A stretch of DNA of 64,000 nucleotides from Brachyspira suanatina (GTDB taxonomy: Bacteria > Spirochaetota > Brachyspiria > Brachyspirales > Brachyspiraceae): the NCBI RefSeq assembly GCF_001049755.1, contig NZ_CVLB01000001.1, forward strand, positions 1,382,995-1,446,994, given 5' to 3'. The notes below the pieces were generated by a model. The model saw only the letters and a program-made list of their open reading frames with translations, was not told the DNA's origin and made no database searches. Positions 5,962 through 34,956 of this stretch are shown piece by piece. Numbering within the stretch: the first letter of the stretch is position 1; each line of letters starts with the position of its first letter. A program made the translations under genes and the position numbers.

Positions 5962-6330
5962 ATGGCTAAAACAATACTAATTGTAGACGATTCTAATACA
6001 GCTAGAGCATCTGTTGAATATACTTTGAAGAAAGGCAGCTATACTGTGGTGTCTGCAGATGATGGTACTACAGGATTGGAGGTTCTTGGTAAAACACCAA
6101 ATGTTGATATGATAATAACAGACCTCAATATGCCAAAAATGGACGGTATAGAATTTATTAAGCATGTAAGAAAGGTGGATCAGCATAAATATACCCCTAT
6201 TCTGATGCTTACAACAGAATCTCAAGATGAGAAAAAAATGGAAGGTAAAGCTGCAGGTGCTAGCGGATGGCTGGTAAAACCATTTAACCCAACTCAGCTT
6301 TTAGACGTAGTAAAACGTTTTTTAAATTGA
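5962..6330 (+). CDS. cheY: Chemotaxis response regulator CheY
   Basis: A 122-aa stand-alone receiver domain. The acid pocket is D9/D10 (ILIVDDSN) and the phosphoacceptor D54 (MIITDLNMPKMDG), with the switch Thr in LTTES and the conserved Lys in LVKPFNP. Phospho-CheY is expected to bind the flagellar switch in the cytoplasm. It lies between the STAS gene and cheA, preceded by AAGAGG. No phosphatase gene (cheC/cheX/cheZ) is seen in this operon. Confidence 0.93.
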   Translation: MAKTILIVDDSNTARASVEYTLKKGSYTVVSADDGTTGLEVLGKTPNVDMIITDLNMPKMDGIEFIKHVRKVDQHKYTPILMLTTESQDEKKMEGKAAGASGWLVKPFNPTQLLDVVKRFLN

Positions 6331-6382
6331 TTTCTAACCATCTTATTATATAATAAGGATTTTATAAAGGTAGAGGTGCTAT

Positions 6383-8557
6383 ATGTTTGATAGTGATGAA
6401 TTTATTTCGATATTTCTAAGTGAAGCTAATGAAATTGTAGAAGGTCTTGAAAACGATCTTGTTTTGTTGGAAGACAATAAAAGTGATGAAGATCTTTTAA
6501 ATAAAATATTTAGAAGTGCTCACACTCTTAAATCTTCAGCAGGTACAGTTGGTTTCACTACTATGAGTGAGTTAAACCACGTTGCTGAAAACTTATTAGA
6601 AAAAGTTAGAAGCGGTAAATTGGATGTTACTCCTCAAATGATTACAGTATTACTGGAGTTCTTAGATACTGTAAAATTAATGCTGCAAAATATTGTAGAC
6701 GGCAAAAGTGAAACTGAAGGTGTTACTAATATAGATTCACTAAAAGCTAAAATAAAAGCTATAGCTGACGGTAATGATGTAAGTACCGCTGCAGCTGCAC
6801 CAAAAGCATCTCCTGAACCTAAAAAAGAAGAGCCTAAAAAAGAAGAGGCTAAAGCAACAGAAGCTAAACCTGAAGAAAAAAAAGAAGAGGCAAAAACTGA
6901 ATCATCTTCTGCTTCAGGCGGAGAAAATTCATTCCATATCGAAATGGGATTTAAAGCTACTATTTTTGATAATGGTATAGACCCTCTTATGTTCTTAAAT
7001 GACCTTAGAGCTATAGGTACTATAAGTAACTTAAAAATAGAATGTAATAGCTTACCTACTATCTTAAATCTTGAAGATCCTTATGTTTGTTATACCCAGT
7101 TCTCTTTAGATTTTGAAACTAATGCTCCTGAAGAACAAGTTCAGAACATTTTCTTATTTGTAATAGATGATAACGATATTAATATCATCAATACAAAAGC
7201 TGATATAAAAGATGATGAAGAAGCAAACAAATCAGATGAAGCAAAAGAAGAACAACCAGCAAAAGAAGAAGCTAAAGAAAACACAGCTAAGGTAGAAGAA
7301 AAACCTGCAGAAACATCTGCAGCTGCTAGTAAGCCCGCAGCCGCTCCTAAAGCAGGTACAAAAGTTCAGGCTCCTTCAACAGTAAGAGTTGATACAAGAA
7401 AATTAGACAGCTTAATGAACTTAATTGGAGAGCTTGTTATAGCACAATCAAGAATAATGCAGCTTACTCAAAGTTTAGATATAGATAATGGACTTAAAGA
7501 GGCTGTAAGTTCAATGGATAGAACTTCTAGACAAATACAAGAAGAAGTTATGAATATCCGAATGATGCCTATCGGTCCTATATTTACTCAGTTCCATAGA
7601 TATGTTAGAGATTTGAACTTAGAATTAAATAAAGAAGTAAAATTAGTTCTTAAAGGAGAAACTACAGAAATAGATAAAAATATGTTAGAGCAGTTATCTG
7701 ACCCTCTTAAACATATTATAAGAAACTCTATGGACCATGGTATAGAAAAAACAAAAGAAGAAAGAATAGCCAGAGGCAAACCTGAATATGGTACAATAAC
7801 AATGTCTGCTGCTCACCAAGAAGGACATGTTGTTATAGAAGTATCAGATGATGGTAATGGATTAAATAAAGAAAAAATCTTTAATAAAGCTGTGGAAAAA
7901 GGCTTGCTTTCAAGAGATGGAAAATATTCTGACATAGAAATATATAGAACTATTTTCTCTCCTGGTCTTTCTACTGCTGAAAAAATAACAGACATATCAG
8001 GAAGAGGTGTTGGTATGGACGTTGTTAGAGCTAATGTAGAGAAGATGAAAGGTAAAATAGAAATTAAGTCTGCTGAAGGTCAAGGCAGTACCTTCATAAT
8101 TAAACTTCCTTTAACATTGGCTATTATTGAAGGTATCACTTTTGCTTTAGGTAAGCAAATATACATAATGCCTTTGATTTCAATTATAGAGCAAATAAAA
8201 GTAAAAAATGAACAGGTAAAACCTTTTGAAGGCAAAGGTGAAATGATAAAAATCAGAGATGAGTATTTGCCTTTGATTAGACTTCATAAAGTATTTGAAA
8301 TAGATACCCAAGTTGAGAATATAGATGATGGTATAGTTGTAGTTGTTGAAGCTGGATATAGAAAATGTGCTATATTTGTTGATGAACTTTTGGATCAGCA
8401 ACAAGTGGTTATAAAATCTTTAGATTCAGCATTTAGTAAACATGCAGGAATAGCCGGAGGTACTATACTTGGAGACGGAAGAATAGCTCTTATTATAGAT
8501 ATACAGGGGCTAGTGAATATGTCTTTACAAGGAAAAATAAATAACGGCGTAAAATAA
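6383..8557 (+). CDS. cheA: Chemotaxis histidine kinase CheA
   Basis: A 724-aa kinase. The domains in order are: HPt with phosphorylated H47 (AHTLKSSAG); a Lys/Glu/Ala-rich linker at about 130-180; a globular middle domain at about 185-275 (FDNGIDPLMFLNDLRAIG) that may take the place of P2; a second charged Ala/Pro/Glu linker at about 280-330; the P3 dimerisation helices (RKLDSLMNLIGELVIAQSRI); the ATP-binding HATPase (N-box HIIRNSMDHGIE, G-box VSDDGNG and GRGVGMDVV); and a C-terminal CheW-like P5 domain. It autophosphorylates in complex with receptors and CheW and passes phosphate to CheY/CheB. The two low-complexity linkers are unusually long. AGAGG precedes the ATG. Confidence 0.95.
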   Translation: MFDSDEFISIFLSEANEIVEGLENDLVLLEDNKSDEDLLNKIFRSAHTLKSSAGTVGFTTMSELNHVAENLLEKVRSGKLDVTPQMITVLLEFLDTVKLMLQNIVDGKSETEGVTNIDSLKAKIKAIADGNDVSTAAAAPKASPEPKKEEPKKEEAKATEAKPEEKKEEAKTESSSASGGENSFHIEMGFKATIFDNGIDPLMFLNDLRAIGTISNLKIECNSLPTILNLEDPYVCYTQFSLDFETNAPEEQVQNIFLFVIDDNDINIINTKADIKDDEEANKSDEAKEEQPAKEEAKENTAKVEEKPAETSAAASKPAAAPKAGTKVQAPSTVRVDTRKLDSLMNLIGELVIAQSRIMQLTQSLDIDNGLKEAVSSMDRTSRQIQEEVMNIRMMPIGPIFTQFHRYVRDLNLELNKEVKLVLKGETTEIDKNMLEQLSDPLKHIIRNSMDHGIEKTKEERIARGKPEYGTITMSAAHQEGHVVIEVSDDGNGLNKEKIFNKAVEKGLLSRDGKYSDIEIYRTIFSPGLSTAEKITDISGRGVGMDVVRANVEKMKGKIEIKSAEGQGSTFIIKLPLTLAIIEGITFALGKQIYIMPLISIIEQIKVKNEQVKPFEGKGEMIKIRDEYLPLIRLHKVFEIDTQVENIDDGIVVVVEAGYRKCAIFVDELLDQQQVVIKSLDSAFSKHAGIAGGTILGDGRIALIIDIQGLVNMSLQGKINNGVK

Positions 8558-8568
8558 AGGATTGTAAT

Positions 8569-9099
8569 ATGTTAGATAATCAAAAAATAAATGCAGCTAA
8601 TATACCTCAGGTTGGAGGTACATCTTTGGAACATGATGAAAACATTTCTATTGAACCTAGTCAACAATTTTTAGTGTTTAAAATTGATAATGAGGAATAT
8701 GCTCTTGATGTATTAAGTATTGAAGGTATTGTAGGTGTAACTAATATAACTCCTGTTCCTGGAAGTCCTAAATTTATGAGAGGTCTCATGAATTTAAGAG
8801 GTAATATTCTTCATATAGTTGATATAAGAATAAGATTTGGTTTGGATAGAAGAGATGATCATTCTATAGAAGATGATGTTATTATAGTTATATCCACTAC
8901 TAATAGAAAATTTGGTATATTGGCAGATATGGTAAGTGATGTTATTACAGTTTATGAAAGCCAGATGACAGAAACTCCTATTGATAATATGAGAGGACTT
9001 CAAATTTCTAATGTTATTAGATTAGAAAATAAGATTATTATGGTTCTTCCTATAGAAGAAATCATAAAATCTAATGAAACAACCAATCAAACAGTATAA
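8569..9099 (+). CDS. cheW: Chemotaxis adaptor CheW
   Basis: A 176-aa SH3-like CheW domain (LVFKIDNEEYALDVLSIEGI; PGSPKFMRGLMNLRGNILHI with the conserved Arg; FGILADMVSDVI) preceded by a roughly 30-residue polar N-terminal extension. It bridges receptors and CheA. It starts 11 nt after the cheA stop and 19 nt before cheR. Confidence 0.93.
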   Translation: MLDNQKINAANIPQVGGTSLEHDENISIEPSQQFLVFKIDNEEYALDVLSIEGIVGVTNITPVPGSPKFMRGLMNLRGNILHIVDIRIRFGLDRRDDHSIEDDVIIVISTTNRKFGILADMVSDVITVYESQMTETPIDNMRGLQISNVIRLENKIIMVLPIEEIIKSNETTNQTV

Positions 9100-9118
9100 T
9101 ATCATTGAGGTATAAAAA

Positions 9119-9970
9119 ATGGAAGATATGAATGAGCATATGCCGGCTTTGAGTGATGCTGAGTTTAATGAATTAGTTAAAATTATTTATGACAAGACTA
9201 GAATACAAATGACTAGCCATAAAAGGGCTTTAGTAACCTCTAGATTAAGTAAGAGGCTAAGAGCCTTAAAAATGGACTCTTTCAGGGAATATATAGACTT
9301 TGTCAAAAATGCAAAAGATGAAGAGTTAACTAATTTTGTTAATGCTGTTACCACAAATAAAACTGACTTTTTTAGAGAAAATAAGCATTTTGAGTATATG
9401 AAAAGCACATTTCTTCCAGATTGGGAAAAAAATTTTAAAGCTGGTAAAGTTAAAAATCTTAGAATATGGTCTGCAGCCTGCTCTACAGGAGAAGAACCAT
9501 ATACTATACAAATGACTTTGCATGAATATTTTGGCACAAATTATGATAAATATGATATAAAAGTTTTAGCTAGTGATATAGATACAAATGTATTAGCACA
9601 TGGAAGAGCAGGTATTTATAAAGAAGAATCTGTAGAACCTATACAAGATAATATATTGAGAAAATACTTTTTAAAAGGTACTGGTGATAAAGAGGGATTA
9701 TATAAAGTTAAAGATATATTAAAAAAGAATTTATTTTTTAGACAATTAAATTTTAAAGATGAAGATTTTGATATCCATACTCAATTTGATTTAATATTTT
9801 GTAGGAATGTTATTATTTATTTTGATAAAGAATTCCAAAAGGAATTATTTAATAAATTTCATAGATATTTGAAAGAAGACAGTTTAGTATTTATAGGGCA
9901 TTCAGAAACATTATTTGGTGTGTCTGATAAATTTAAATATGTAGCAAGTAATATCTATAAAAAGATTTAA
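9119..9970 (+). CDS. cheR: Chemoreceptor glutamate methyltransferase CheR
   Basis: A 283-aa SAM-dependent enzyme that methylates receptor glutamates. The N-terminal helical domain ends in NAVTTNKTDFFRE. The Rossmann domain has the SAM motif IWSAACSTGEEPYT, the acidic ASDIDTNVL, and the family signature FDLIFCRNVIIYFD, then FIGHSE. The length is normal. It belongs to the che operon with cheB as the opposing enzyme. Confidence 0.95.
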   Translation: MEDMNEHMPALSDAEFNELVKIIYDKTRIQMTSHKRALVTSRLSKRLRALKMDSFREYIDFVKNAKDEELTNFVNAVTTNKTDFFRENKHFEYMKSTFLPDWEKNFKAGKVKNLRIWSAACSTGEEPYTIQMTLHEYFGTNYDKYDIKVLASDIDTNVLAHGRAGIYKEESVEPIQDNILRKYFLKGTGDKEGLYKVKDILKKNLFFRQLNFKDEDFDIHTQFDLIFCRNVIIYFDKEFQKELFNKFHRYLKEDSLVFIGHSETLFGVSDKFKYVASNIYKKI

Positions 9971-9986
9971 CTAGGGGTGTGTAATA

Positions 9987-10580
9987 ATGATTGATTTTCC
10001 AGCAGCGGCTAATAGCAATTTTAAAAGAATCACAATATATATAGGTGGTTATTATGCTTCAAAAGAACCTGCTGTAATAAAAACAGTTCTAGGCAGTTGT
10101 ATATCTGTATGCCTGTTTGAGAATAAATTAAAATTTGGGGGTATGAATCACTTTATGCTTCCTGAAATGAGAGAATGGGAAAATCCGGCTGAAGATTATA
10201 ATAATACTAGATATGGTGTTTTTGCTATGGAGGTTCTTATAAATGAAATTATAAAATTAGGTGGAAAAAAAGAAAATCTTACAGCTAAAATATTTGGAGG
10301 TGGACATGTACTTTCAGGTATGACTAGCAATATTCTTCAAGTGCCTGATAAGAATATACAGTTTGCTAAGAAATTTTTAGCAGATGAAAAAATACCTATA
10401 GTTAGTGAGGATATAGGAGGTTCTTGGCCTAGAAAAGTATTCTTTTTCAATACTGAAAACAGAGTTCTTATGAAAAAACTAGAAGGTAAAACTAAAGAAT
10501 TCTCAGCTGAACAAGAAATTAAATATTCTAAAAATTTACAGCATAAACTTGAAGAAAAATCAGACATTACATTGTTTTAA
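9987..10580 (+). CDS. cheD: Chemoreceptor glutamine deamidase CheD
   Basis: A 197-aa deamidase. The catalytic Cys lies in KTVLGSCISVCLFE and the His in GGMNHFMLPE; FGGGHVL and NIQFAKKFL follow as in the family. CheD usually works with CheC, but no cheC is visible here. A C-terminal Lys/Glu-rich tail of about 30 residues extends past the core. It is close to cheR (16 nt) and cheB (24 nt). Confidence 0.92.
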   Translation: MIDFPAAANSNFKRITIYIGGYYASKEPAVIKTVLGSCISVCLFENKLKFGGMNHFMLPEMREWENPAEDYNNTRYGVFAMEVLINEIIKLGGKKENLTAKIFGGGHVLSGMTSNILQVPDKNIQFAKKFLADEKIPIVSEDIGGSWPRKVFFFNTENRVLMKKLEGKTKEFSAEQEIKYSKNLQHKLEEKSDITLF

Positions 10581-10604
10581 TATATTAATAATTAAGGATT
10601 TTAT

Positions 10605-11738
10605 ATGGCTACAAAAATTAAAGTATTAGCTATTGATGATAGCGCACTAATTAGACAATTACTTACTAAAATTGTAAACTCAGATCCTGCATTAGAAATG
10701 GTAGGAACTGCTGCAAATCCAATTTTAGCTGAAAATAAGGTTAAAAACCTTAAGCCTGACATTATTACTTTAGATATTGAAATGCCGGAAATGGATGGTA
10801 TTACATATCTTAAAAAACTTATGCTTAACAACCCTATTCCTGTAATAATGTTTAGTTCGCTTTTGGATAAACATAGAGAGTTAGCTTTAGATGCTTTAAA
10901 TATTGGAGCTTTTGATTATGTAATAAAACCTTCTGCTAATGTTAGAGACGGTGTAGAAGAATTAGCTACAGATTTAGTTGAAAAAATAAAAAATGCTTAT
11001 GCAAACAGAGCTAAATTTTATAGAAAACATGGTGTTACAGTTCCAACAGAACCTGTTGCAACTACTGAAAGAAGTTCTATTAGTTTAGAAGCACCTAAAA
11101 CAGCTGGTTTTAAAGTTTATCAGAAAAATACTGCTGATATCATACTTCCTCTTACACCTTCAAGAGAAACTCCTATGGATAAAATAATTCTCATAGGTTC
11201 TTCAACAGGCGGTACAGAGGCTTTAATAGAGTGTCTTAAAAATGTTACTCCTTCAGCTCCGCCTATCGTCATTGCTCAGCATATGCCTGAACACTTTACA
11301 ACTTCATTTGCCAAGAGATTAAATAGTATTCTAAAAATAGATGTATTTGAATCTGAAGATGGTATGAGTGTAGGAAGAGGACAGGCTGTATTAGCCAGAG
11401 GTGCTAAACATACTATGATTAAAGTTAGAGGCGGTAAATACTATATAGAAGTAAGAGATGGAGAACCTGTTACTAGACATAAACCTTCTGTAGACGTACT
11501 TTTCAGAAGTGGTGCTGTTTATGCTAAAAACAAAGCTATCGGAATAATACTTACAGGTATGGGTGATGATGGTGCCAATGGTATGAAAGAAATGAAAGAT
11601 GCAGGAGCTTACAACATAGCACAAAATGAAGAAACTTGTACTGTTTTTGGAATGCCTAGAGAAGCAATTGCAAGAGGTGGTGTTGATGAAGTTTTACCAT
11701 TAGATAAAATACTTGCTGCAGCACTAAAAAGAGTATAA
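10605..11738 (+). CDS. cheB: Chemotaxis methylesterase/response regulator CheB
   Basis: A 377-aa protein. The N-terminal receiver carries D11/D12 (LAIDDSAL), the phosphoacceptor Asp in ITLDIEMPEMDG and Lys in DYVIKPS. The C-terminal methylesterase has the Ser/His/Asp triad in GSSTGGTEAL, IAQHMPEHFT and GMGDDGANGM. It removes receptor methyl groups when phosphorylated. A linker at about 145-185 joins the domains. It is followed after 7 nt by the NTase-like gene. Confidence 0.95.
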   Translation: MATKIKVLAIDDSALIRQLLTKIVNSDPALEMVGTAANPILAENKVKNLKPDIITLDIEMPEMDGITYLKKLMLNNPIPVIMFSSLLDKHRELALDALNIGAFDYVIKPSANVRDGVEELATDLVEKIKNAYANRAKFYRKHGVTVPTEPVATTERSSISLEAPKTAGFKVYQKNTADIILPLTPSRETPMDKIILIGSSTGGTEALIECLKNVTPSAPPIVIAQHMPEHFTTSFAKRLNSILKIDVFESEDGMSVGRGQAVLARGAKHTMIKVRGGKYYIEVRDGEPVTRHKPSVDVLFRSGAVYAKNKAIGIILTGMGDDGANGMKEMKDAGAYNIAQNEETCTVFGMPREAIARGGVDEVLPLDKILAAALKRV

Positions 11739-11745
11739 ATATAAA

Positions 11746-12561
11746 ATGGATAAAAATATAGATTTATATGAATATATAAATAGATGGGTAAGCGGTTTTA
11801 CAGCTTACCCATATTATAAAATTGAAAAAAAATTGGATTTTATATCCAAATTGATATCATCTCATAAAGACTTCAATAATATTTCTATTATTCCTACTGG
11901 TTCAAAAAGAAATAGAACTGATGTAAATTATATGGAGTATCTTAATATATTTTTAATATTAGATCATAGTAATAATTCATCTGACTCTAGAAAATTTAAA
12001 TCCTCTATACTAGAATTAATTAAAAATAATGATCTATACTCAAATAAAGTTAATGTTACATCATCAACTTTAATTTTAGAATATGAAACTGAAAAAATAG
12101 TATTAATACCATCATTTAAAAATCTAGATAATAATGTTGAAGGTGCTTTAGTAACAGACTCTAATGGAAAAAATGAAATATTTTATCCAAAATTAGATAA
12201 TAAAAACTTTGATAAAAAAGAACATGACTGTGGGTCTAATTTTATTAATTTAATAAAATTATTTAAGAATTTATTTTTGACTTTTTCTTCAGAAATTAAA
12301 TATATTAATGAATTAACTCCTGGTATAACAGAAGCACTTATATGGAATATGCCTGATGAATATTTTAAATTCAAAGACTATGATGATGCTATATTAAAAT
12401 CTCTTGAATATATTTATCAAAGAATAGCTAGCGATGATTATATGTCTCTTTCTGAAATCAATGATATAAAAGTTTTATTTTCAGCTAGAAACAACATTGA
12501 TAGAAAAGAATTATTGAAAGCATTATACAAATTAAAACAATTTATACATGAAAATATATAA
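11746..12561 (+). CDS. Degenerate nucleotidyltransferase-fold protein (pseudo-CD-NTase-like)
   Basis: A 271-aa protein with no clear annotation. The order of motifs fits the CD-NTase/OAS-type nucleotidyltransferase fold: the GS loop (IIPTGSKRNRT, then V), a strand at the D-x-D position, the VDLVPAF-like strand as IVLIPSF, and a C-terminal helical LIKLFKNL...GITEALIWNMPDEYF block that recalls the 'SYLIECLVYNVP' motif of these enzymes. The catalytic acids are missing: the D-x-D site reads YLN and the third-Asp strand reads V. Catalysis is therefore unlikely. It starts 7 nt after cheB and is very likely co-transcribed with the che genes. The fold call is my motif reading only. Confidence 0.5.
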   Translation: MDKNIDLYEYINRWVSGFTAYPYYKIEKKLDFISKLISSHKDFNNISIIPTGSKRNRTDVNYMEYLNIFLILDHSNNSSDSRKFKSSILELIKNNDLYSNKVNVTSSTLILEYETEKIVLIPSFKNLDNNVEGALVTDSNGKNEIFYPKLDNKNFDKKEHDCGSNFINLIKLFKNLFLTFSSEIKYINELTPGITEALIWNMPDEYFKFKDYDDAILKSLEYIYQRIASDDYMSLSEINDIKVLFSARNNIDRKELLKALYKLKQFIHENI

Positions 12562-28815: not shown

Positions 28816-28855
28816 TAATATTAAAATAAATTTATATATTTAATTGGATTTGAAT

Positions 28856-31800
28856 ATGGATAGAATAATAGAACTATTTGCAAAAAACAGATTATTAGTT
28901 AATGTTATTATTTTGGTTACTTTAGCTGTTGGAATATACTCTTATCTTAATATAAAGAAGGAAGCTTTTCCATCAACTAACTTTGATGTTATGATAGTTC
29001 AGGTTATATATCCGGGTGCTTCTCCAGAAGACGTTGAACAATATGCTATGATTCCAATAGAAGATGAGCTGCAAACTATAGCAGGCATTGATGAATTTTA
29101 TTCTATAATAATAGAAAATGCTGGAATACTCACTATAAGAATAGACATGAACCTTAAAGACTCAAGACCTGTAAAAGATGAAATATTCAGACGTCTTCAG
29201 AATGCTCCTAATGTATCAAAAGATGTTTCAGAGATAAAAATTTTTGAAGCTAATGCTAACAGACTTCCTATATACAATCTTGGTTTAAGATTCAAAAAAG
29301 GAATGGAAGGCAGCGAAAAAGAACTTTATGATATATCCAAAAGATTTGAAAAAGAATTAAAATATGTAGACGGAGTTGCAAATATTGAAGTATATGGAAG
29401 AACTGATCCTGAAATTCAAATACTTGCAGATCCATATAAATTAAATGAATATTATACTTCATTAACAGAAATTATACAGGCATTATCTTTAAGAAATATA
29501 CGTTCTACAAGCGGAAATATGAAGCCTGATGAAAATGCTGATTTAGAAGAAAAAAATAAACTTCTTGTAACTACAGGACAATTTCAAGATCCATTATCTA
29601 TTACAAATGTTATTATACGTTCTATATTTAATGGTCAGCCGGTAAGAATTGGAGATGTAGCAAGAGTTGAAGAATTATTTGTTGATAAAAGTGTATATAT
29701 GAGAGTTAATAGTCAGCATGGATATTCAATAAATATAATAAAAAAAGAAGATGCTGATATATTAAAAACTATAGACAATGTTAATAAATATTTTGAAAAC
29801 AACAAAGCAACTATACCAAATAATATAGAAATAGTACCTATGGCTGATAACTCAAGAACTATTAATGATTTGCTTAATGCAGTTTCTTCAAATATTATTA
29901 CAGGATTCATAATCATATTTGTAATACTTATAATATTTTTGGATTTCAAAAGTGCAATATTTACTTCGCTTGGAATGCTTATAGTTATTTCCGTTTCTCT
30001 TATTTATATGACATACTCTGGAATAACTTTCAATATAATTTCTTTAGGCGGTATTATAACGGTTTTAGGTATGATAGTAGACAACTCAATAGTAGTTTCA
30101 GAAAATATTTTTAATTATCATCAAAGAGGAATAAAAGGACTTGATGCCACCAAAAGTGCTGTAGGCGAAGTATTCATGCCTATGCTTGTTTCTACTCTCA
30201 CAACCGTTGCATCTTTTGCACCTATAATATTTGTTACTGGAACTATGGGAAGATTAATCAATCAATATCCTAGAGTTGTAATAGTAGCTTTGATTGTAAG
30301 TATATTTCAGGCAGTACTTCTTTTGCCTAATAACTTGATAACAAAAGAAGAACTTACTGGAGAACATAAAAGAAAAAGATTTAATTTCAAAAATCCTCTT
30401 GATTTTGATAAAGATAAATTATTCGATAAATTAAAAATACCTTTTATTAAATTTTTAAGATTTACATTAAAATTCAGATATGCTGTATTAATATTTTTTG
30501 TAGTGACATTACTCATCACTTTAGCAATAGCAAAAGTAATATTTGCAAAATTTACTTTAGTTTATGATACTAGTGCTGATGTTATAGTTGTTAATATGGA
30601 TACAGGAGTTGGAAGTTCTTTATATAAAACAGAAAAATATCTTCAGCAGGTAGAAAATATTATTTATGAAACTGTAAATACTAATGATATAATAGCTGTA
30701 TACAGTTTATTAGGAAAGCAATTAGATAAAAACACTGTGGAAGTGTCCGAAGAAATGGATAATCTTGCCGGTATTATGATATATTTAGTTCCTGCCAATA
30801 ACAGGAAAAAAATAGCTTATGATATAGTAGATGATTTAAATCTAGCTATAGAAAAAAGCGGTATAAAAAAAGAATTGGCATTAATAACAGTAAACACTAA
30901 ACTTCCAATAAACCCTGGTAAAGCAGTTGATATAAAAATAATAGGAAATGATACTGCTATAGTTAAAGAAGTAAAAGATAAAATGAAAGAGCATCTTTTA
31001 AGTTTAAATGGAATAATAAACTATGATGATGATGATAAAATCGGACAGGAAGAATTAAGAGTAATATTTAATTATGACAGAATGGGAGAACTAGGTGTTA
31101 ATGTTGCTTATGCTGCAAGAGAATTAAGGGCTGCCTATGCCGGAATAGTAGCTACTTCAATTCAGCAGTTTGAAAATAAATTAGACTTCAGAGTAAGATT
31201 AGATAAAAAATATACTTATGATACAAATGTACTTAATAATCTTTATATACCAAATACATATAACAGACTTATACAATTAAAAGATATAGCACACATATAT
31301 ATTACAAACAATCAATCAAGCATAAGACATTATAACGGTAAAAAATCTATAACGATGACAGCGGATATTGAACAGGGAAAAAATACTGCCATACAAGTAA
31401 CTTATGCAATGCAGGATTATTTTAATTCTATATCAAAAGATTATCCTAATATAAGCGTAGAGTTTGCAGGAGAGGTAAAAGAAACTAGAGGTTCTATAAT
31501 AGGTATTGCCTGGGGATATGTTGTTGCTATAATTGCAATATATGTAATACTTCTTCTTCAATTTAATAAATTTGTTCAGCCTTTCATGATTTTGGGTATA
31601 ATACCATTTGGAATAATAGGAGTTATACTAGGATTTGCAGCACATAGAATGCCTATGTCTTTTGTAGGAGCTGTTGGTATAGTTGGACTTGCAGGTGTAG
31701 TTGTAAATAATGGTATTATAATGGTGGACTTAATAAACAGAATACTTGAACAAGGAAACATACATACAAAAGAAGATGTACTTAATGCGGTAGTAGAAGG

Positions 31801-32026
31801 TGCAGGCGACAGATTCAGAGCAATATTTCTAACAACAGTTACTACAATATTCGGACTTCTTCCAACTGTTTATGGTATAGGCGGAAGTGCTGATTTGATA
31901 GTACCTATGGTTATGGCTATGGCTTACGGGCTTTTATTCGCTGCCCTTTTGACATTGATACTGTTGCCTTCTCTATTCATGATATCAGCGGATTTGAAAC
32001 TTATAAAAATAAATTATAAAAACTGA
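28856..32026 (+). CDS. RND-family efflux pump
   Basis: About 1056 aa with the AcrB-like layout: TM1, a large periplasmic loop, TM2-6, a second loop and TM7-12. The N-terminal ASPEDVEQYAMIPIEDEL region is typical. In TM4 the motif reads GMIVDNSIVVSEN, so the second Asp of the AcrB VDD pair is Asn, and TM10 has VVVNNGIIMVDL where AcrB has Lys. This is the common 'VDN/VNN' subclass, whose proton relay differs from AcrB. The frame starts at a TTG 12 nt earlier, but ATG at 28856 begins the usual MDRIIELF. No membrane-fusion protein gene is next to it. Confidence 0.9.
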   Translation: MDRIIELFAKNRLLVNVIILVTLAVGIYSYLNIKKEAFPSTNFDVMIVQVIYPGASPEDVEQYAMIPIEDELQTIAGIDEFYSIIIENAGILTIRIDMNLKDSRPVKDEIFRRLQNAPNVSKDVSEIKIFEANANRLPIYNLGLRFKKGMEGSEKELYDISKRFEKELKYVDGVANIEVYGRTDPEIQILADPYKLNEYYTSLTEIIQALSLRNIRSTSGNMKPDENADLEEKNKLLVTTGQFQDPLSITNVIIRSIFNGQPVRIGDVARVEELFVDKSVYMRVNSQHGYSINIIKKEDADILKTIDNVNKYFENNKATIPNNIEIVPMADNSRTINDLLNAVSSNIITGFIIIFVILIIFLDFKSAIFTSLGMLIVISVSLIYMTYSGITFNIISLGGIITVLGMIVDNSIVVSENIFNYHQRGIKGLDATKSAVGEVFMPMLVSTLTTVASFAPIIFVTGTMGRLINQYPRVVIVALIVSIFQAVLLLPNNLITKEELTGEHKRKRFNFKNPLDFDKDKLFDKLKIPFIKFLRFTLKFRYAVLIFFVVTLLITLAIAKVIFAKFTLVYDTSADVIVVNMDTGVGSSLYKTEKYLQQVENIIYETVNTNDIIAVYSLLGKQLDKNTVEVSEEMDNLAGIMIYLVPANNRKKIAYDIVDDLNLAIEKSGIKKELALITVNTKLPINPGKAVDIKIIGNDTAIVKEVKDKMKEHLLSLNGIINYDDDDKIGQEELRVIFNYDRMGELGVNVAYAARELRAAYAGIVATSIQQFENKLDFRVRLDKKYTYDTNVLNNLYIPNTYNRLIQLKDIAHIYITNNQSSIRHYNGKKSITMTADIEQGKNTAIQVTYAMQDYFNSISKDYPNISVEFAGEVKETRGSIIGIAWGYVVAIIAIYVILLLQFNKFVQPFMILGIIPFGIIGVILGFAAHRMPMSFVGAVGIVGLAGVVVNNGIIMVDLINRILEQGNIHTKEDVLNAVVEGAGDRFRAIFLTTVTTIFGLLPTVYGIGGSADLIVPMVMAMAYGLLFAALLTLILLPSLFMISADLKLIKINYKN

Positions 32027-32145
32027 TTGAATATTTATAGTTTTATAGTATATACCTAAACAATTATATTTTGTCAAAATAATTTTTTCTAATTTAAAAT
32101 ATTTGCAGGGCTTTGCCCTTACGAAGTACACAGAGTGCAGCCCCC

Positions 32146-32241
32146 CACTTCTTTTGTTGACACAAAGAAGCTTATATCCTCGACAAGCTCGGATACGTTT
32201 CGCGAACAACTGCATTTTTAACCTAAAATTATGGTATTACA
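32146..32241 (-). repeat. Repeat module A, copy 1 (minus orientation)
   Basis: About 95 bp. Read on the minus strand, it aligns with 34721-34817: TGTAATACC, then AGGTTAAAAATGCAGT, TTCGCGAA, CGTATCCGAGC, TGTCGAGGATATA and TCTTTGTGTC, with scattered mismatches. It is richer in G+C than the surroundings. Confidence 0.75.
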
Positions 32242-32260
32242 CCATATTTGATAGATATTC

Positions 32261-32304
32261 TTAAAATATAAAATTATAGCAATTGCGTTTTCGCGAAGCG
32301 TGCC
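32261..32304 (+). repeat. Repeat module B, copy 1
   Basis: The 44-bp sequence matches 34913-34956 at 40 of 44 positions in the same orientation. The core is AATTGCGTTTTCGCGAAGCG. Confidence 0.8.
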
Positions 32305-32454: not shown

Positions 32455-33327
32455 TTAATACTCTAGTAAATTGCTATTAAGTATTGCACCAAGTTCATAT
32501 CTGTTATTGTCGCTGCTGTAATTATATATATAAAATGTTAAATAATCATATTTATAATCAGCCATTTTTTGTCCTACATATAAAAGTCCATTAGCAGGTA
32601 TGGAACTTAATATATGAACTTCTTCTAAATTTCTATATTTTACTATATCATCAAAAATTTCATCTATCTTTTTAGTAAATAAATAATAACATCTTTTATT
32701 TACCAAACTTTTATGTGAATGCTCTTCTAATATAACTTGATGTGTTATTGTGATGATATTGCTGTATGAATAATCGAATCCTTTATTAAGAATAAGATTT
32801 TTATCATCTTTATAAACTTGTTCTATATCATTAATATTTGATTGTCCTGATAATATTATCCCTATTGGGTGATTAATATTATCTATTCTCATAACATTTG
32901 ATTTGCTTTCTACAAAACTTTTTAATTCAGGCTCATCTATTTCTATATCTTTAAATCCCCAAGATAATGAATCTTTTGGCTTTGGGAGAAAAACAAAATT
33001 ATATCCGTATTTCTCTAATATATAAGCAATAGAAACAAGTATGCTGTTAGGAGCTATTGCATAAAGGACTATAGGATAATCTTTAGTTATATTTTTTTCT
33101 TTAAACTTTGATAATATGATATTTTTTAATTTCTTTATAACATTATCTATTTTATTTTCTTTTTCATTTTTGTATTCTTTATATTCTTTATCTAAATCTA
33201 TTTCCAAATCAATAGGGGGCATTTCTCCGAAGTTCTGAGCATTTCCTCTTATAGAATGAAATATTTTCACTCTTTTAATATTATCATCTTCAGTCATATA
33301 ATCAAAAATTTTATTATTATCTTTCAT
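32455..33327 (-). CDS. Orphan SAVED-domain-like protein
   Basis: A 290-aa soluble protein. Two Rossmann-like halves carry SAVED-type landmarks: IVLYAIAPNSILVSIAYILE with LPKPKDSLSWGF (about 85-125), a middle strand GIILSGQSNINDI (about 152-165), and VHILSSIPANGLLYVGQKMA with the final ELGAILN strand (about 235-290). SAVED domains sense cyclic oligonucleotides in CBASS effectors, normally fused to a nuclease or other effector. Here residues 1-80 are a charged, helical stretch with no nuclease motif. No active cyclase gene is adjacent. The ATG follows GAGAGTAAAG. The fold is inferred from motif order; the role is unknown. Confidence 0.6.
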   Translation of the reverse strand: MKDNNKIFDYMTEDDNIKRVKIFHSIRGNAQNFGEMPPIDLEIDLDKEYKEYKNEKENKIDNVIKKLKNIILSKFKEKNITKDYPIVLYAIAPNSILVSIAYILEKYGYNFVFLPKPKDSLSWGFKDIEIDEPELKSFVESKSNVMRIDNINHPIGIILSGQSNINDIEQVYKDDKNLILNKGFDYSYSNIITITHQVILEEHSHKSLVNKRCYYLFTKKIDEIFDDIVKYRNLEEVHILSSIPANGLLYVGQKMADYKYDYLTFYIYNYSSDNNRYELGAILNSNLLEY

Positions 33328-33460: not shown

Positions 33461-34483
33461 ATGAAAATATTAGGTATAGACACTTCATGCGATGATACTT
33501 CTGCTGCTATAGTTGAGGACGGAAAAAATGTACTTTCTTCAGTATTAAGCTCATCAATAGATGCACATAAAGAATTTCAAGGAGTAGTTCCTGAAATTGC
33601 TGCAAGAAAACATTTGGAAGCAATACTCTATGTAATAGATAAAGCATTAAAAGATGCAAATACCACTTTAGATGATATAGATTTATTTGCAGTTACAAAC
33701 AGACCAGGACTCTTAGGCTCTTTGCTTGTTGGAGTGGCAAGTGCAAAATCATTGGCATTTTCTTTAAACAAGCCGTTATTAGCTTTGGATCATATAGCTG
33801 CACATATTTACTCGCCTCATCTTACAAATGATATAGAGTTTCCTTATATAGCATTGGTTGTATCTGGAGGACATACTATAATAACCGAAGTGCATGATTA
33901 CGGTGAATATAAAGTTGTGGGTACTACTTTAGATGATGCTGTGGGCGAAGCTTATGATAAAGTTTCAAAGTTTTTAAATCTAGGATATCCGGGCGGCCCT
34001 ATAATAGACAGATTAGCTAAAGAAGGAAACAAAGAAGCAATAAAATATCCTATTGTATTATTAAACGGCATAGATGAATTTAACTTCTCATACAGCGGAC
34101 TTAAAACAGCATGCGTTTATTCTACAAAAAAATATCTTAAAGAAGGATACGAAGCAACTAATGAAAATATAGCTGCCGCATTTCAAATAAGTGCAATAGA
34201 GCCTTTATATATCAAAACTTTGAAATATGTTGAAAAAAGCGGTATTAAAAGAGTTACATTATCCGGCGGAGTGGCATGCAATAGTTATTTAAGAGAGAGA
34301 TTTGGAAACTCTAAAGACTTTGAATGTTATCTACCTGCTTTAAAATACACAACAGACAATGCTGCTATGGTTGCGGGACTTGCTTATCATATGAAAGATA
34401 AACAGGATTTTGCTGATTATAATTTAGATTGTTTCTCAAGAGTTTTAAATAAAAAATATAACAAAAATAAAAGTGCAAAATAA
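33461..34483 (+). CDS. tsaD: tRNA N6-adenosine threonylcarbamoyltransferase
   Basis: A 340-aa ASKHA-fold enzyme that transfers the threonylcarbamoyl group to A37 of ANN-decoding tRNAs. The N-terminus is MKILGIDTSCDDTSAAIVED. The metal-binding His pair lies in LDHIAAHIYSP, with VSGGHT, FNFSYSGLKTA and LSGGVACNSYLRE. GGAG precedes the ATG. It is divergent from the SAVED-like gene and followed by element E2. Confidence 0.97.
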   Translation: MKILGIDTSCDDTSAAIVEDGKNVLSSVLSSSIDAHKEFQGVVPEIAARKHLEAILYVIDKALKDANTTLDDIDLFAVTNRPGLLGSLLVGVASAKSLAFSLNKPLLALDHIAAHIYSPHLTNDIEFPYIALVVSGGHTIITEVHDYGEYKVVGTTLDDAVGEAYDKVSKFLNLGYPGGPIIDRLAKEGNKEAIKYPIVLLNGIDEFNFSYSGLKTACVYSTKKYLKEGYEATNENIAAAFQISAIEPLYIKTLKYVEKSGIKRVTLSGGVACNSYLRERFGNSKDFECYLPALKYTTDNAAMVAGLAYHMKDKQDFADYNLDCFSRVLNKKYNKNKSAK

Positions 34484-34720
34484 AATTATAATTGACTGGA
34501 AATTTATTTACTAGCTTAGATTATAAAATAGACTTGTTTCAAAACTTATTTATAAAATTAGTTATATAATTATTAGTATAATCAGTGTATAACTAAACAA
34601 CTATATTTTGTAAATTTTTATATTTTGTAAATGTATTATCAACTTTTTTTGTCGCACAAAAAAGTTGCAAAAAATACAAGTGCTACAACCTTATATCATT
34701 ACAATACGTATTAAATGTAT

Positions 34721-34817
34721 TGTAATACCTAAAATTTAGGTTAAAAATGCAGTCTTTCGCGAAGCGTATCCGAGCCTGTCGAGGATATAGGTTCTTTGTG
34801 TCTACAAAAGAATTTGG
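34721..34817 (+). repeat. Repeat module A, copy 2 (plus orientation)
   Basis: This is the inverted counterpart of 32146-32241, with the same order of conserved blocks including TTCGCGAAGCGTATCCGAGC and TGTCGAGGATATA. Confidence 0.75.
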
Positions 34818-34912
34818 GGTCGGAGCTAGCCACCGAAAATAATAGCAATATAAAAACTAATTTTGACAAAGTTAAAAAATTTTAGTATATATCATACATT
34901 TAATAAACATCA

Positions 34913-34956
34913 TTAAAATATAAAGTTCTAGTAATTGCGTTTTCGCGAAGCGTACC
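34913..34956 (+). repeat. Repeat module B, copy 2
   Basis: It matches 32261-32304 at 40 of 44 positions and has the same orientation, although module A is inverted between the two elements. Confidence 0.8.

Follow-up and report, generated by a model that had tools for sequence, protein, structure and literature searches.

A stand-alone SAVED protein with neither a fused effector nor an adjacent active cyclase in Brachyspira suanatina

Most studies of SAVED domains treat them either as switches attached to killing domains or as ring nucleases of CRISPR systems, and the classification of the CARF and SAVED domains is reportedly due to Makarova et al. in 2020. The chromosome of Brachyspira suanatina carries a gene encoding one such domain and nothing more, and the question is what a receptor of this kind does when no linked effector and no intact cyclase partner were found for it. 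The gene was studied in a stretch of 64,000 nucleotides, below called the window (Table 1). The explanation preferred here, with a probability of roughly 0.4, is that the gene encodes an old, vertically inherited stand-alone SAVED protein which would bind a cyclic nucleotide and either hold the signal or cleave it slowly. Such a role is proposed because nothing is attached to the protein. An old, chromosomal and constrained SAVED gene for which neither a killer nor a working cyclase was found is a clean case in which to ask whether such a receptor serves as a sink, a timer or an adaptor. If the cell itself does not produce the signal that the protein reads, the protein would be a guard against signals that mobile elements bring in.

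Table 1. Coordinates of the features discussed, given as positions in the window.
Feature	Position	Strand	Remarks
CdnE-type CD-NTase homologue, 271 aa	11746..12561	+	Catalytic acids replaced; 7 nt behind a cheB-like gene
RND-type transporter gene	28844..32026	+	Tail-to-tail neighbour; named by eye
Dispersed repeat, left copy	32142..32304	.	At least 44 genome matches
Stand-alone SAVED protein, 290 aa	32455..33327	-	Profile and structure matches
CARF-2 motif, residues 236-254 (EVHILSSIPANGLLYVGQK)	32566..32622	-	Homologue and Cap5-type alignments
CARF-2 first strand and loop, residues 155-163 (IGIILSGQS)	32839..32865	-	S160 and S163 invariant; residue 162 aligns with LlCap5 S274
Loop KPKDSLSWG, residues 116-124	32956..32982	-	K116, K118 and W123 invariant; P117 aligns with LlCap5 Arg234
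CARF-1 core motif, residues 85-106 (PIVLYAIAPNSILVSIAYILEK)	33010..33075	-	20 of 22 positions invariant in 9 intact homologues
tsaD-like gene	33461..34483	+	Divergent neighbour; named by eye
Dispersed repeat, right copies	34671..34956	.	Inverted 34671-34819, direct 34876-34956

The SAVED gene and its surroundings

A preliminary description of the locus had proposed a stand-alone SAVED-like protein, and both this assignment and the extent of the reading frame hold. The protein scores above the curated cut-offs of two SAVED families, namely Pfam PF18145 (E=4e-11, 43.4 bits against a cut-off of 26.2) and NCBIfam NF033611 (E=1.2e-41, 143 bits against a cut-off of 33), and matches the PADLOC profile PDLC02017, labelled 'SAVED_TM', over residues 1-290 (E=3.9e-109, 362 bits). 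It is thus a real SAVED protein, matched far above chance, and the only SAVED match in its genome. A search of PDB chains with the protein sequence gave chance matches only and recovered no SAVED chain. Since NF033611 fills residues 4-284 of the 290, there is no room for a fused nuclease, TIR, protease or membrane domain. A fused effector, which the preliminary description had also found to be missing and which would mark a SAVED-type CBASS effector, is thereby ruled out.

Going by its label, the PADLOC profile would describe a protein with a membrane segment. The most hydrophobic part of the Brachyspira protein, residues 86-104 in the CARF-1 core, has a mean Kyte-Doolittle value of 2.02, while the matching stretches of crystallised Cap5 proteins reach 2.13 (DwCap5 from Deinococcus), 1.66 (PsCap5) and 1.26 (AsCap5). 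Judged by hydropathy, the 'TM' of the label may be a false membrane prediction, for which the hydrophobic CARF-1 core is perhaps the reason. A membrane protein is thought unlikely from this comparison of hydropathy with soluble Cap5.

No active CD-NTase gene adjoins the SAVED gene, as had been claimed, and in this respect too it departs from a CBASS effector. Its neighbours, named by eye, are an RND-like and a tsaD-like gene; the CdnE homologue of the window is degenerate and lies 20 kb away, and inspection of the window by eye revealed no cas genes among its open reading frames. In the B. pilosicoli clade the SAVED gene is found elsewhere; an fbp-like gene flanks it on one side, and the genes on its other side vary. 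The two clades thus have no immediate neighbour in common, which speaks against an operon partner. Where the gene is missing, the RND-like and tsaD-like genes may lie 71 bp apart with nothing between them (G004), or other genes, none of them with a SAVED frame, may come after the RND-like gene (G019). One carrier, G009, has a 302-aa open reading frame of unassigned kind on the RND side of the SAVED gene (L002 27-935), perhaps an inserted element.

This neighbourhood bears on the main rival explanation, according to which the protein is only one half, the receptor, of a split system, with the effector and the source of the ligand encoded elsewhere in the genome; stacking of the receptor upon ligand binding would then bring in or activate the partner. 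Several SAVED proteins are described as stacking head to tail under the action of their ligand (PMC8568899; PMC13148439), and the purifying selection on the gene (see below), at a locus without any partner, would agree with a receptor acting in trans. However, no adjacent partner is conserved between the clades, and an unsystematic search found no candidate effector. The data do not separate this sensor from a protein that holds or cleaves its ligand, and it is regarded as possible, if rather unlikely.

Repeat elements bracketing the gene had been taken to fit acquisition or decay. The copies are real, the inverted one matching at 81% over 150 bp. At E 1e-5, however, the left copy matches the genome at least 44 times, a count that takes in its own position and many partial matches and comes from scoring 40 of the 133 first-look candidates. 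The elements resemble common dispersed repeats and tell nothing about acquisition, and as evidence of a mobile origin they are ruled out. Neither acquisition nor decay can be read from the bracketing, the synonymous divergence of the SAVED gene following that of tsaD.

Distribution, inheritance and selection

The SAVED gene is found in 14 of the 26 Brachyspira genomes. It is intact in nine of these (G000, G002, G007, G009, G011, G013, G014, G017, G025) and broken in five (G012, G015, G021, G022, G023), among which G021, G022 and G023 are metagenome bins where assembly error is possible, while G012 is a B. pilosicoli isolate. Twelve genomes are without it, so that an intact copy is lacking in 17 of the 26. 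Three of the broken copies, in G023 (L069 8330-8440), G015 (L014 1520-1640) and G022 (L005), are interrupted at codons about 120-126, beside the pocket loop. Two of the lesions are deletions, one of them short and the other of one base, and the third is a nonsense change; their closeness might be due to chance, assembly error or a hot spot.

Across 392 genomes of the phylum, PF18145 gave 13 positives, all Brachyspira, whose open frames did not exceed 292 aa. The SAVED alignment gave at least 14, again all Brachyspira among the candidates scored, these alignment searches covering at most six first-look candidates per genome. A scan of contigs with two narrow patterns found seven loci, all from Brachyspira (B. 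alvinipulli, B. pilosicoli and uncultured Brachyspira). Two narrow patterns found no relatives in 599 stretches of viral contigs, and no relatives were detected in plasmids or phages at E 0.01. A relaxed search, with E up to 10, returned a Massilia SAVED protein (E 0.2) and a hypothetical protein of one Kosakonia phage (E 6, two records). A hit on a Methanosphaera plasmid yielded nothing of use. An origin from a phage or plasmid thus found no backing in viral contigs, plasmids or phages at the limits used.

The ratio dN/dS of the SAVED gene is 0.017-0.243 over the 55 pairs of 11 sequences (nine intact, two broken), many deep pairs being near saturation (dS near 1) so that close pairs weigh most. 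Unsaturated pairs give 0.02-0.20; examples of close pairs are G011-G013 (0.037) and G000-G007 (0.131). In the six genomes where the SAVED and tsaD genes are adjacent, including G022, whose SAVED copy is broken, the dS values of the two genes agree within 21% in 15 of 15 pairs over a range from 0.07 to 0.97. In six pairs involving G011, where the two genes are not adjacent, they differ by up to 37%. Since the dS of the SAVED gene tracks that of tsaD, a recent separate transfer is ruled out. The gene is regarded as old and vertically inherited, and its frame is kept under purifying selection, which is weaker than that on tsaD (dN/dS 0.02-0.24 vs 0.00-0.08).

These figures also bear on whether the gene is a relic of a lost CBASS on its way out, the copy in the window simply not being broken yet. 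Such an explanation agrees with the many genomes in which the gene is gone or damaged, and with the finding that the one CD-NTase homologue found is degenerate. If the SAVED gene is ancestral, at least seven losses of the intact gene are needed on a midpoint-rooted tree of 20 cyclase-like genes, a tree that has some weak nodes and leaves out G009, G021 and G025. A decaying gene is however difficult to reconcile with a dN/dS far below 1 in all 55 pairs and with a dS that follows that of tsaD. The suggestion that the gene is a leftover, in the sense of a decaying relic, is thus not supported for this genome, given that nine of the 14 carriers have kept the gene intact, and decay is held to be improbable.

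Synonymous divergence differs elsewhere in the window. Among G000, G007, G009 and G025 the dS of cheB (10605-11738) is 0.21-0.32, compared with 0.07-0.16 for tsaD and the SAVED gene, which suggests interspecies recombination in one of the two regions.

Predicted pocket and possible signals

An AlphaFold2 model of the SAVED protein, built on an alignment of four sequences, is of low confidence (mean pLDDT 55). With this model, all 15 Foldseek rows at E<=0.001 are SAVED proteins (Cap14, Cap5 and 3TM-SAVED) with probabilities of 0.85-0.99, among them the SAVED domain of BtCap14 with 2',3'-cGAMP (E 4.2e-5), while SPARTA and Piwi chains enter the ranking from rank 30. Global superposition of the SAVED matches is poor, with TM-scores of 0.19-0.29 and an rmsd of about 19-20 Å. 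A second structural comparison with the same weak model aligned residues 147-285 with the SAVED domain of Deinococcus Cap5 (Z 8.9) and residues 151-290 with the AcrIII-2 structure 9r8s (Z 6.2). Among the matches listed in that comparison no SAVED structure spans residues 7-142, to which other proteins, such as receptor ligand-binding domains, align at Z up to 6.3. The best matches are thus SAVED proteins and no different fold emerged, but at a pLDDT of 55 the model does not confirm the N-terminal half.

The putative ligand pocket was compared by aligning the nine intact homologues with LlCap5, a remote alignment in which the LlCap5 numbering fits six of six residues. The ligand contacts are those given in PMC8568899, where R234 is described as reading the linkage and I208 as stacking on the adenine. 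I208 corresponds to an isoleucine (I91) in all nine homologues and is, in this remote alignment, the only one of the five ligand side chains that is kept. R234, an arginine in all three of the other aligned Cap5-type proteins, is replaced by Pro117 in nine of nine, with an invariant lysine on both sides. The remaining contacts are changed as well, S274 to Q/K/R, R281 to D/N and F304 to H/D. The proline makes a Cap5-like reading of the 2'-5' link unlikely, and the ligand probably differs from the 3',2'-cGAMP of Cap5. The residues around the contacts are nevertheless constant, the invariant fraction within three residues of the six LlCap5 contacts, a width chosen by the analyst, being 0.80 compared with a mean of 0.62. 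In 270 circular shifts no other shift reaches 0.80. Changed contacts in constant surroundings suggest a working cleft for a different ligand.

In the preferred explanation, the SAVED protein would be soluble and would bind a cyclic nucleotide or oligonucleotide in the cleft of its two CARF parts, and its molecules might stack head to tail, as is known from other SAVED proteins. The ligand would then be held, as by a sponge, or slowly cleaved, and whatever makes or uses the signal would be damped. The replacement of four of the five LlCap5 side chains makes the binding of a cyclic nucleotide an assumption. Further points against holding or cleavage are the weak model, the 17 genomes in which the gene is absent or broken, and a constraint lower than that on tsaD.

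Cyclases that might provide the signal were searched for in the genus. The Pfam family PF18144 (SMODS) was found in none of the 26 genomes, compared with 4 of 14 in a control, and it misses the degenerate homologue too. PDLC00780 was likewise found in none of the 26, some of which are drafts, and is uninformative since its control was equally silent. PDLC00801, on the other hand, matches 23 of the 26 genomes, and all its 24 places are the CdnE homologue of the window and its orthologues.

The homologue, here termed the pseudo-cyclase, closes a chemotaxis cluster (5962-12561, genes named by eye). Its relationship to the CdnE family is established by profile matches to the CdnE structures 7x4f (1.9e-13), 7x4c (3.2e-10) and 6e0m (3.2e-7) and to the PADLOC Cyclase profile (3.3e-18), while none of the Pfam CD-NTase families matched. 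It also resembles a Streptomyces cyclase encoded together with a 2TM effector (hhalign probability 71%); hhalign against the Massilia cyclase gave nothing usable, and a single-sequence model reached a pLDDT of only 44. In all 20 aligned proteins the DxD of EfCdnE is replaced by YxN (YxS in G016), and the place of the third aspartate, three residues before a conserved proline and opposite a gap in the 6e0m alignment, is taken by V/M/L/A/I. Lacking the catalytic acids DxD ... D, the protein should be dead as a cyclase. It has no inner stops in 22 of 23 carriers, being frameshifted in G009, and is under purifying selection, its dN/dS being 0.06-0.53 over 190 pairs. In the seven genomes checked (G000, G002, G007, G009, G011, G022, G025) the gene follows cheB at a distance of 5-8 nt. 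A CdnE-like C-terminal fragment was also found at a contig start in a genome of the sister genus (G146, L091), the catalytic half falling outside that contig.

All 14 genomes with a SAVED gene also carry the pseudo-cyclase, and the three genomes without the pseudo-cyclase have no SAVED gene (Fisher p=0.085), while the pseudo-cyclase persists in nine genomes that have no SAVED gene. The co-occurrence is suggestive only, not significant, and the pseudo-cyclase is a possible evolutionary companion of the SAVED gene. In G011, from the B. pilosicoli clade, it adjoins the tsaD-like gene (L038), which in the window adjoins the SAVED gene; the pseudo-cyclase and the SAVED gene may once have been closer together. 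A 'disarmed' CBASS, in which a synthase without catalysis and a receptor without a killing domain have both been kept for something else, is a decidedly doubtful reading of this pair, and equally doubtful is its proposed use, for example the binding of nucleotides without catalysis as a means of tying behaviour to phage or metabolic state. Catalytically dead OAS-like proteins exist in animals, and a dead CdnE behind cheB would be their bacterial counterpart, possibly more surprising than the SAVED gene itself.

The protein might instead have turned from an immune signal to a housekeeping one and now read c-di-AMP or c-di-GMP. A diadenylate cyclase domain is encoded in all 26 genomes, and the PDB titles among the structural matches include Cap5 with 3'2'-c-diAMP. 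However, the 17 genomes without an intact SAVED gene all keep the diadenylate cyclase, which means that the SAVED gene is dispensable, and a receptor for a housekeeping nucleotide is accordingly not a likely solution.

Type III CRISPR, another source of cyclic oligonucleotides to be considered, exists in the genus. Cas10 exceeds the Pfam cut-off in five of the 26 genomes (G002, G008, G021, G023, G024), with a GGDD motif in G002. The genome analysed here has one weak match below the cut-off and none above it; there is consequently no obvious signal to damp, which counts against the preferred explanation. An AcrIII-2/Crn5-like ring nuclease or anti-CRISPR, retained in order to shut down type III signalling, would have its architecture in common with the stand-alone SAVED ring nucleases that PMC12751052 describes, and Cas10 does occur in the genus. 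Nevertheless, an intact SAVED gene is present in one of the five Cas10 genomes, compared with eight of the 21 others (Fisher p=0.63), so that no association is seen, and no virus or plasmid copy was found at the limits used. The catalytic H128, R96 and K99 of AcrIII-2 could not be placed by sequence; the invariant histidines of the Brachyspira protein are H24, H196 and H238. Such a ring nuclease is considered the least probable of the explanations.

Comparison with known SAVED systems

The open literature searched contained no paper joining Brachyspira with 'SAVED domain' or CBASS. The PADLOC profile PDLC02017 presumably contains close relatives of the protein, in which case the family is already catalogued.

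The nearest structural relatives, judged from a weak model, are the SAVED domains of BtCap14 and Cap5, that is of a TM-SAVED and an HNH-SAVED protein, respectively. The motifs can also be aligned with those of a Cap5-type protein from Massilia (hhalign probability 63%, E 7e-5). On the Massilia plasmid, which carries a genuine SAVED CBASS, the genes for a SAVED effector, a nucleotidyltransferase and proteins of the ThiF and Mov34 types follow each other in a row, while none of these partners is found near the Brachyspira gene. Compared with the Cap5 and Cap14 types of CBASS, the Brachyspira protein lacks both an HNH domain and a convincing membrane segment, and its gene has no adjacent CD-NTase, Cap2 or Cap3.

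Members of the superfamily that work without an effector offer further parallels and would serve as precedents for the preferred explanation. AcrIII-2 and Crn5 act as ring nucleases, and stand-alone SAVED genes are called rare in bacterial genomes in PMC12751052. For Csx15, which belongs to the same superfamily, PMC13148439 indicates that some members appear to sequester cA4. Like the Brachyspira gene, AcrIII-2 and Crn5 encode a single SAVED domain without an effector. They differ in their setting, AcrIII-2 being viral and Crn5 being found in type III CRISPR loci, while the Brachyspira gene is neither viral nor part of such a locus. It is found in the chromosome, where a transporter-like and a tsaD-like gene flank it, and no Cas10 exceeds the cut-off in this genome. 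The Brachyspira variant is thus set apart by being chromosomal, vertically inherited and placed outside both CRISPR and CBASS.
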